Shown in pieces: positions 31,472-33,156 of a stretch of 64,000 bases of DNA. Position 1 is the first letter of the stretch; every line of letters begins with the position of its first letter. Source of the stretch: an uncultured Pelagibacteraceae bacterium (lineage in GTDB: Bacteria > Pseudomonadota > Alphaproteobacteria > Pelagibacterales > Pelagibacteraceae). The position numbers and the translations under genes were made by a program. The stretch covers positions 1 to 64,000 of the forward strand of contig CACHLB010000004.1 in the NCBI GenBank assembly GCA_902580505.1. The letters run 5' to 3'. The notes beneath the pieces are model-generated. The model did no database searches. It saw nothing but the letters and a program-made list of their open reading frames with translations, and was not told the origin of the DNA.

Positions 31472-32616
31472 TGAAAAAATCAAAAAGATCAGATGTTGAT
31501 CCATTTATAGTAATGGATGTAATGGAATCTGCTAGAATTGCAGAGGAAAAAGGTAAAGATATAATTCATATGGAGGTAGGGCAGCCAGGAACACCCGCAC
31601 CTAAGATTGCTAAAGATTATATTACTAATGAGATAAACAAAAACAATCTAGGTTACACAGTATCGCTAGGTCTACCTGATCTAAGAACAAAAATTTCAAA
31701 GTTATATGGAGATTGGTACAATTTAGATTTAAATCCAAATAGAATAGTAGTTACAACAGGGTCTTCCGGAGCCTTTATATTATCGTTTTCGGCATTGTTT
31801 GATAGTGGAGACAGAGTTGGAATTGGATCTCCAAGTTATCCTAGCTATAGACAAATACTAAAATCACTAAGTTTGGAAACTGTAGATATTCAAACTAAAC
31901 TTCAAAATAGATTTCAACCTGTTCCAGAAGATATTACAAATAATAATTTAAATGGAATTCTTGTTGCATCGCCTGCAAATCCAACTGGTTCTATGCTGGA
32001 TAAACAATCTTTAGAGAATTTAATTAATACTGCAAATGAAAACAATGTAAGCTTTATTAGTGATGAGATTTATCACGGAATACAATATGAAAATAATCCA
32101 ACTTCAGCTTTAGAGATTACAGATAATTGCTATGTAATTAATTCTTTTTCAAAATACTTTTCTATGACTGGTTGGCGAATAGGATGGATGGTTGTACCAG
32201 AAGATCATGTCAGACAAGTAGAAAGACTCTCGCAAAATTTATTTGTCTGTCCTCCACACGCAAGTCAAGTTACAGCTCTTGCTTCATTGGATGCAAATGA
32301 AGAGTTACAATCAAATGTAGAAGTATATAAAAAAAATAGAGAGATACTATTAGAGGAATTACCTAAGGCAGGATTAAAAAAGTTTTCACCACCTGATGGA
32401 GCTTTTTACATTTATGTTGATATATCTGAATATTCAAATGATAGCTTAGCTTTTTGTAAAAAAGTTTTAGATGAAGCAAATGTTGCAATAACACCAGGAA
32501 TTGATTTTGATCAAAAAAGAGGAAATTCTACTATACGATTCTCATACGCAAGAAGCACAAAAGATATAATAGAAGGTGCTAAGAGAATTAAAGATTTTAT
32601 GTCTAAAAATTATTAA
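31468..32616 (+). CDS. class I/II PLP aminotransferase
   Basis: ASPANPTGSML, ISDEIYHGIQY, NSFSKYFSMTGWRIGW. Confidence 0.93.
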   Translation: MMKKSKRSDVDPFIVMDVMESARIAEEKGKDIIHMEVGQPGTPAPKIAKDYITNEINKNNLGYTVSLGLPDLRTKISKLYGDWYNLDLNPNRIVVTTGSSGAFILSFSALFDSGDRVGIGSPSYPSYRQILKSLSLETVDIQTKLQNRFQPVPEDITNNNLNGILVASPANPTGSMLDKQSLENLINTANENNVSFISDEIYHGIQYENNPTSALEITDNCYVINSFSKYFSMTGWRIGWMVVPEDHVRQVERLSQNLFVCPPHASQVTALASLDANEELQSNVEVYKKNREILLEELPKAGLKKFSPPDGAFYIYVDISEYSNDSLAFCKKVLDEANVAITPGIDFDQKRGNSTIRFSYARSTKDIIEGAKRIKDFMSKNY

Positions 32617-32662
32617 AAGGGGTCAGCTCAATTGGTTATTACCAAAAGAGCTCCCCTTTTTT
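32614..32662 (+). terminator. Long terminator hairpin
   Basis: AAAAGGGG-tc-AGCTC-aa-TTGGT-TATT-ACCAA-aa-GAGCT-CCCCTTTTTT. Confidence 0.88.
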
Positions 32663-32960
32663 ATGCCATTTTGGCCAAATCCATCAAATGGATTTAGTTT
32701 GTGTTATTTTTAATATGTGATATCTCACCAGCTAAGTGTCAGGTGGCGTTATTCTAAGCATTTGCACCTCCTTCACTTATAAAAATAAGTTTTAGGTAGG
32801 TTGTATTCAACAAATTTATTTCTATTTTTTATAAATATATTATTTGAATACAACCTGTCTCTTTAGTAGATTCTCGATATCGAAATAATCAAAATATTCC
32901 CAAACTCTTAAATGAAACTTATGTCACAGAGACAGACAATAAATATATTTGTAATTAAAA
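32663..32960 (+). ncRNA. Candidate structured RNA / complex leader of unknown class
   Basis: Successive inverted repeats: AAATCCAT/ATGGATTT, GTGA/TCAC, CACC/GGTG, ACTTAT/ATAAGT, AGGTTGTATTCAA/TTGAATACAACCT, CTGTCTCT/AGAGACAG. Confidence 0.45.
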
Positions 32961-32964
32961 TCTC

Positions 32965-33156
32965 ATGAAAACGATATTTGTTATTGGATCAAAAAAACAT
33001 ACTCTAAAATACACAAGAAAAATGCCTGAGGGTGAAGTTAAGAAAATGAAATCTTTTGTTACAAACAAAGGGCAAAAACTTGAAAAAACTTCAAAATTTA
33101 AAATTTTAAAAGTATCAGACGACAAAACTTCAAGAACTTTCAAAATCAGTCTTTAA
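32965..33156 (+). CDS. small basic hypothetical protein
   Basis: 63 aa MKTIFVIGSKKHTLKYTRKMPEGEVKKMKSFV...; upstream of phr in same orientation. Confidence 0.6.
   Translation: MKTIFVIGSKKHTLKYTRKMPEGEVKKMKSFVTNKGQKLEKTSKFKILKVSDDKTSRTFKISL

Follow-up and report, generated by a model that had tools for sequence, protein, structure and literature searches.

A translated, free-standing small RNA gene predicted in SAR11 bacteria (Pelagibacteraceae)

Judged by comparison with its relatives, the hairpin-rich intergenic gap described here contains a small RNA gene of SAR11 (Pelagibacteraceae) that is free-standing and had not been described before; it lies on the minus strand of the window (the whole 64,000-nt stretch of DNA that was analysed). 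A conserved promoter, a Shine-Dalgarno (SD) sequence and a very short ORF all lie on that strand, followed by three conserved hairpins. It is very probable that the RNA is both free-standing and translated. The combined reading, in which ribosomes translating this free-standing RNA are also slowed at a Pro-Pro-Asp/Glu (PP[D/E]) motif, is about evenly balanced between true and false.

Location, strand and extent

A covariance model of the family aligns at 32616-32779 on the minus strand over all 165 model positions (117.9 bits, E 5.5e-25). The 5′ end of the RNA in Table 1 was placed from the promoter spacing and the 3′ end from the last conserved hairpin, where the transcript would finish. The original prediction had implied the plus strand, and had missed the mini-ORF on the other one.

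Table 1. Features of the predicted RNA gene and its upstream region.
Feature	Positions	Strand	Remarks
Small RNA gene	32615..32776	minus	~160 nt, free-standing; both ends predicted
Upstream box GGTTGTATTCAA	32844..32855	minus	centre at about -73 from the predicted start; far arm of the 13-bp repeat
AT-rich block AATATATTT...AAATAAAT	32812..32843	minus	between the two 13-bp arms; conserved in alignment
Inverted second copy TTGAATACAACC	32799..32810	minus	near arm of the 13-bp repeat; overlaps the -35 box
-35 box TTGAAT	32805..32810	minus	part of TTGANN-N16/17-TANNNT
-10 box TATTTT	32782..32787	minus	17-nt spacer to the -35 box
Shine-Dalgarno AGGAGG	32767..32772	minus	kept by all g1, g5 and g7 members except one decayed copy
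Mini-ORF MLRITPPDT*	32732..32761	minus	ATG CTT AGA ATA ACG CCA CCT GAC ACT TAG, 9 codons
CTG just 3′ of the stop codon	32729..32731	minus	invariant in Pelagibacter-type copies, not in other genera
Hairpin 1, AAATCCAT/ATGGATTT	32677..32695	minus	two-sided changes in 5/6 pairs and 98.7% of cells paired (model-fitted); 1/6 in MAFFT
Hairpin 2, GGCCaaaaTGGC, GCC/GGC	32665..32676	minus	two-sided changes in 3/3 pairs (model-fitted), 1/3 in MAFFT
3′-terminal hairpin, AAAAGGGG-A-GCTC.../...GAGC-TGA-CCCCTTTT	32615..32660	minus	first described as a "strong terminator"

Folding of the gap compared with dinucleotide shuffles gave z-scores of -3.96 on the plus strand and -3.72 on the minus strand, and the minus-strand RNA by itself (32614-32776) gave -4.95. 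Such scores alone identify neither the strand nor the relevant repeats, and it is the comparison of relatives that decides. The seven inverted repeats and the terminator-like hairpin noticed originally are all present exactly where they had been placed, and their fates across relatives differ. Hairpin 1 and the hairpin at 32615-32660 are conserved with compensatory changes; the GTGA/TCAC and ACTTAT/ATAAGT repeats and the palindrome TCGATATCGA are not conserved. Hairpin 2, which had gone unlisted, is conserved. The terminator, taken at first for a separate element preceding the gap, is the RNA's own 3′ hairpin.

Distribution among Pelagibacterales

A DNA search gave matches in 21 of 61 related genomes, and 17 of the loci fetched align as a whole element. 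The alignable block covers 32.6-32.9 kb only, with different flanking genes in different relatives. The pattern GGAGG, ATG, PPDT, stop, CTG was found in 140 of 398 Pelagibacterales genomes, once in each, and a reversed control gave none; in the GTDB genome collection, the matches listed are all SAR11 records, nearly all titled Pelagibacteraceae. With a first covariance model, built from 28 members, a single-copy RNA was found in 75 of the 115 g1 (Pelagibacter-like) genomes at least 90% complete. A copy is also present in G066, which we take to be "Ca. P. ubique" HTCC1062. The RNA was found too in all five genomes of g7, the IMCC9063-type genus (G191 being taken as IMCC9063 itself). Both g5 genomes were added by a second model, which also gave one weak candidate among the three g6 genomes.

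The RNA was not found in 14 g8 genomes, in 12 genomes of f2, the other family of the order, or outside Pelagibacteraceae among 395 Alphaproteobacteria genomes from 282 genera, under strict filters by which very distant relatives could be missed. Four weak model matches (G190, G184, G076 and G039; E 0.01 to 0.08) were treated as chance, and two of them (G190 and G184) lack the mini-ORF. A phage origin was rejected, as the exact pattern matches none of 2.9 million viral contigs.

The RNA is absent from 40 of the 115 g1 genomes. One copy, L227 (G166:C6:25789-25942), has lost its SD, in-frame ATG and promoter and partly kept its hairpins, and is apparently a decaying gene. Together these absences and the decayed copy indicate that the RNA gene is dispensable. 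A candidate distant member, L237 (G294:C9:6274-6442), encodes MFMPIPDT* and has a different downstream folding with a plain GGGGGC...CCCCC terminator; it adjoins a PsiE-like gene, as do the g5 copies.

Genomic context

Of 155 loci, 152 have a convergent gene downstream. The downstream genes belong to 16 protein families, and the upstream ones, which may lie on either strand, to 21. On this comparison, the RNA gene is an independent unit set in differing neighbourhoods. Control of the small basic protein and photolyase genes next to the gap, as had been proposed, does not fit neighbours that change from genome to genome. A riboswitch or other cis-regulatory leader was rejected for want of a consistent downstream gene, and an attenuator leader peptide because there is no same-strand structural gene downstream. 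The supposed switch between a 13-bp and an 8-bp stem fares no better. Both repeats lie upstream of the predicted transcription start, just 11 of 145 relatives have the 8-bp pair CTGTCTCT/AGAGACAG, and about 40% of them have lost one 13-bp arm, so that mutually exclusive conserved stems are not found.

The 63-aa basic protein encoded before the photolyase (32965-33156, plus strand) has no Pfam match. Many RNA copies elsewhere (L010, L011, L012, L019 and others) stand beside a divergent gene for a conserved 59-aa membrane protein (IYAINIVAGFAGADYSFTNGE...), on the opposite strand, some 180 to 380 nt 5′ of the SD.

Promoter and upstream sites

A TTGANN-N16/17-TANNNT promoter pattern directly 5′ of the SD is found in 139 of 145 g1 elements, compared with 1.7% of shuffled sequences, although the relatives are not independent of one another. 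Its position would place the transcription start about 10 nt 5′ of the SD. Of the 13-bp repeat in the original prediction, only the far arm is constant: GGTTGTATTCAA is present in all 145 Pelagibacter-type elements with at most two mismatches (131 exactly). The near arm, TTGAATACAACC, is present in 83 of the 145 at the same threshold and has three to six mismatches in the rest. Since both arms sit in the promoter region and the near one is often lost, it makes better sense to regard the repeat as DNA control sites than as an RNA stem.

The box GGTTGTATTCAA is a probable transcription-factor site, judging from its conservation. In nine genomes it is nearly confined to the RNA locus, and no regulon was found for it there; the g7 and g5 copies do not have it. 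The AT-rich block between the arms resembles an UP element and may act as one. The upstream promoter block (TTGTATTCAA plus the AT-rich tail) has short additional matches at G021:C1:6516-6540, G036:C2:64963-65001 and G019:C4:54286-54312, which are possibly second sites of the same regulator.

The mini-ORF

An in-frame ATG occurs in all 61 distinct SD-to-stop strings, which come from a search that set no condition on frame (a few strings are counted twice, where GGAGGAGG offers two SD registers; 56 entered the SD-pairing test below). The ORF follows the pattern M-x(0-6)-[P]P-[D/E]-T/I-stop. Variation in the final four codons and the stop codon falls on the third base of each, with the first and second barely changing: CCA/CCG at -4, CCT/CCA at -3, GAC/GAT/GAA at -2, ACT/ACA/ATT at -1, and TAG/TAA/TGA as the stop. 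The peptide is MSPPET* in g7 and MSPPEI* in g5, the ORF persisting through the change from D to E and an altered stop. Two divergent members, MLKLPDT* (L226) and the candidate L237, have a single Pro before the D. The N-terminus is free in length and sequence, giving totals of 6 to 11 residues, and the peptides have no signal peptide. The codon pattern indicates that the mini-ORF is under coding selection.

In many minimum-energy folds, the Pro codons (CCNCC) mask the SD (GGAGG). Selection for this was rejected: codon-randomised ORFs pair with the SD equally well or better (probability of SD pairing 0.76, compared with 0.69 for the actual ORFs). As the SD is not hidden by selection, translation appears to be wanted.

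The 3′ hairpin domain

Three conserved hairpins are present, all 3′ of the stop codon. In a sequence-only alignment, 8 of 22 pairs changed on both sides, with 94.8% of cells paired; none of 500 shuffles reached the covariation score. A model-fitted alignment of 87 distinct sequences, which leans towards structure, gave changes on both sides in 17 of the 22, with 96.8% of cells pairing. Helices 3 and 4, which form the terminal hairpin, contribute two-sided changes in 9 of 13 pairs in the model-fitted alignment and 6 of 13 in MAFFT. The run of U residues expected of an intrinsic terminator follows the last hairpin in the window and is missing in many relatives, and this hairpin therefore seems to be a conserved domain and not only a terminator.

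The suggestion that the gap holds an unlisted structured RNA is thus borne out by conservation in relatives and covarying stems. It is also consistent with Rfam 15, where the window and 16 related loci gave nothing above the gathering threshold and, at E values up to 5, only chance-level miRNA and snoRNA matches.

A 24-nt hairpin 1 sequence, GAATTCATTTTTCTAAATGAATTC, is identical between the g7 copies (L221-L225) and the g5 copies (L233-L236), the rest of the RNA having diverged. This identity suggests a bound partner.

A possible ribosome pause, and alternatives

The reading preferred here is a programmed pause, which is plausible but tentative. A promoter with an always-present upstream regulator-type site would start a short transcript just before a strong SD; a ribosome would then translate 6 to 11 codons ending in Pro-Pro-Asp/Glu-Thr-stop, with the three-hairpin domain following. 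The peptide itself would not be the main product. The PP[D/E] codons would slow peptide-bond formation, as in the EF-P-dependent class of pauses, and hold the ribosome over the end of the ORF. This dwell time would be set by the translation state of the cell, and would in turn determine how stable the hairpin domain is, or how active in trans.

Ribosome profiling in E. coli places PPD and PPE among the strong EF-P-dependent pause motifs, with PPD only in the pausing set, although most PPX motifs there cause no strong pause and the upstream context has an influence (PMC4140641). The change from D to E between genera would keep the pause property. EF-P is present in each of the 15 near-complete genomes tested. 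The peptide is so short that a slow C-terminal peptide bond is likelier than a tunnel-sensing arrest peptide. The conserved bases in g1 extend to the CTG after the stop, at +15 counted from the second Pro codon, or about where a ribosome paused at that codon would end; this is suggestive only. A strict di-proline pause is weakened by the two divergent members with a single Pro before D. The codon signature would be the same for a functional peptide, and this also counts against the pause reading.

Such a peptide is the first alternative, possible but doubtful: the gene would be a very short mRNA whose M...PP[D/E]T product of 6 to 11 residues acts in trans, for example by C-terminal protein binding, with hairpins that only stabilise or end the message. 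Conservation of the amino acids, rather than the bases, of the last four codons across three genera would be expected of it, and the SD and promoter are strong. It accounts less well for an N-terminal half that varies in length and sequence and carries no signal peptide, for three hairpins that covary beyond the needs of a terminator, many of them without a U-run, or for the invariant CTG after the stop in Pelagibacter-type copies.

In its most specific form, the pause proposal has a free-standing RNA, with no gene downstream, that holds ribosomes by the Pro-Pro-Asp/Glu pause it encodes, either as a trans-acting sensor of EF-P or elongation capacity working through the hairpins or as a reversible ribosome-parking RNA. 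This form is rather unlikely as it stands; its parking version would suit slow-growing, streamlined ocean bacteria without Hfq.

It is also unlikely that the RNA is a dual-function sRNA of the SgrS/SgrT type, pairing in trans as an antisense RNA with the small ORF incidental. The architecture of a dual-function sRNA (a free-standing gene, its own promoter, coding selection on the ORF) is found here at the sequence level, and the length of about 160 nt and structured 3′ end agree with one. Against it, Hfq was found in none of 16 Pelagibacterales genomes tested, with positive controls, which makes the classic sRNA model less likely, and no unpaired seed-like stretch outside the SD and ORF is conserved across genera. 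The conserved stretch CCACCUGACAC had no convincing complementarity to rRNA, in a comparison with rRNA stretches that lack the expected rRNA landmarks. An anti-SD sRNA motif on the plus strand (ACCTCCTT, of the rhizobial CCUCCUCCC type) was rejected, since it is the minus strand that carries the promoter, the SD and the codon pattern.

A cis-acting switch or leader on the plus strand, for which the stable plus-strand fold and a gap upstream of the small basic protein and photolyase genes had spoken, is highly improbable and already refuted by comparison, given the varying neighbours, the unconserved competing stems, and the conserved elements on the minus strand. Equally improbable, and effectively refuted by a coding pattern and three covarying hairpins that recur in three genera at unrelated positions, is a set of DNA-level elements only (a regulator site and a bidirectional terminator, with a coincidental ORF), despite one near-invariant promoter arm and a last hairpin located at gene ends.

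Comparison with known systems

Leader peptides of the TnaC, SecM and MgtL/SpeFL type contain programmed ribosome pauses. The SAR11 RNA is similar in its very short ORF, its conserved C-terminal residues predicted to slow the ribosome, and the hairpins that follow. It differs in having no downstream gene to control, its neighbour being nearly always convergent, and in that conservation of exit-tunnel residues does not extend past the last four or five. Like alpha_tmRNA (RF01849), it is a structured RNA with a short reading frame; unlike it, the mini-ORF has its own SD and ATG, and the true tmRNA lies elsewhere. Identity with tmRNA was rejected, as alpha_tmRNA was found at other loci (220 to 228 bits) in each of the six SAR11 genomes tested and ARAGORN found none here.

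The dual-function sRNAs SgrS/SgrT (PMC4021124) and VcdRP, with its 29-aa VcdP (PMC8672173), resemble the SAR11 RNA, predicted to be a free-standing small transcript with a small ORF. The SAR11 ORF differs in being just 6 to 11 codons long, in beginning no more than about 25 nt from the predicted RNA start, and in belonging to genomes without Hfq. Sinorhizobium rnTrpL/peTrpL derives from a trp attenuator and its peptide has a role in trans (PMC7298713). Both are alphaproteobacterial short peptides, the trans role being only a proposal in SAR11; unlike rnTrpL, the SAR11 locus precedes an operon in none of the 155 loci.

Meyer et al. (2009; PMC2704228) also compared SAR11 intergenic regions, and described the rpsB, rpsL, ffh, SAM-V and SAR11_0636 elements. 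The HTCC1062 copy (762689-762865, minus strand) lies inside a region of their Table 1, 762678-763012, between SAR11_0785 (+) and SAR11_0786 qacH (-), and the gene directions around the G066 copy match these. The table credits that region with 76 BLAST hits and lists no RNA for it; the region fell below the 200-hit cut-off and was not analysed further, and no motif is described for it (PMC2704228). Besides this paper, an iron-limitation study names the two locus tags. No other mention of it as an RNA was found in the available portions of the literature naming SAR11_0785/SAR11_0786.

Significance

On the comparative evidence, the RNA represents a new family, whose reading frame is strictly conserved and unusually small. 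To our knowledge, it is the first free-standing RNA with a conserved C-terminal pause-type motif. Few cells on Earth are as numerous as those of SAR11, which have very few regulators and almost no intergenic DNA. Despite this streamlining, a unit of about 300 bp, promoter and RNA together, is kept in most of the Pelagibacter genomes tested and in two sister genera. If the pause model is true, it would reveal how the state of translation is read out in a cell that has few transcription factors and no Hfq.
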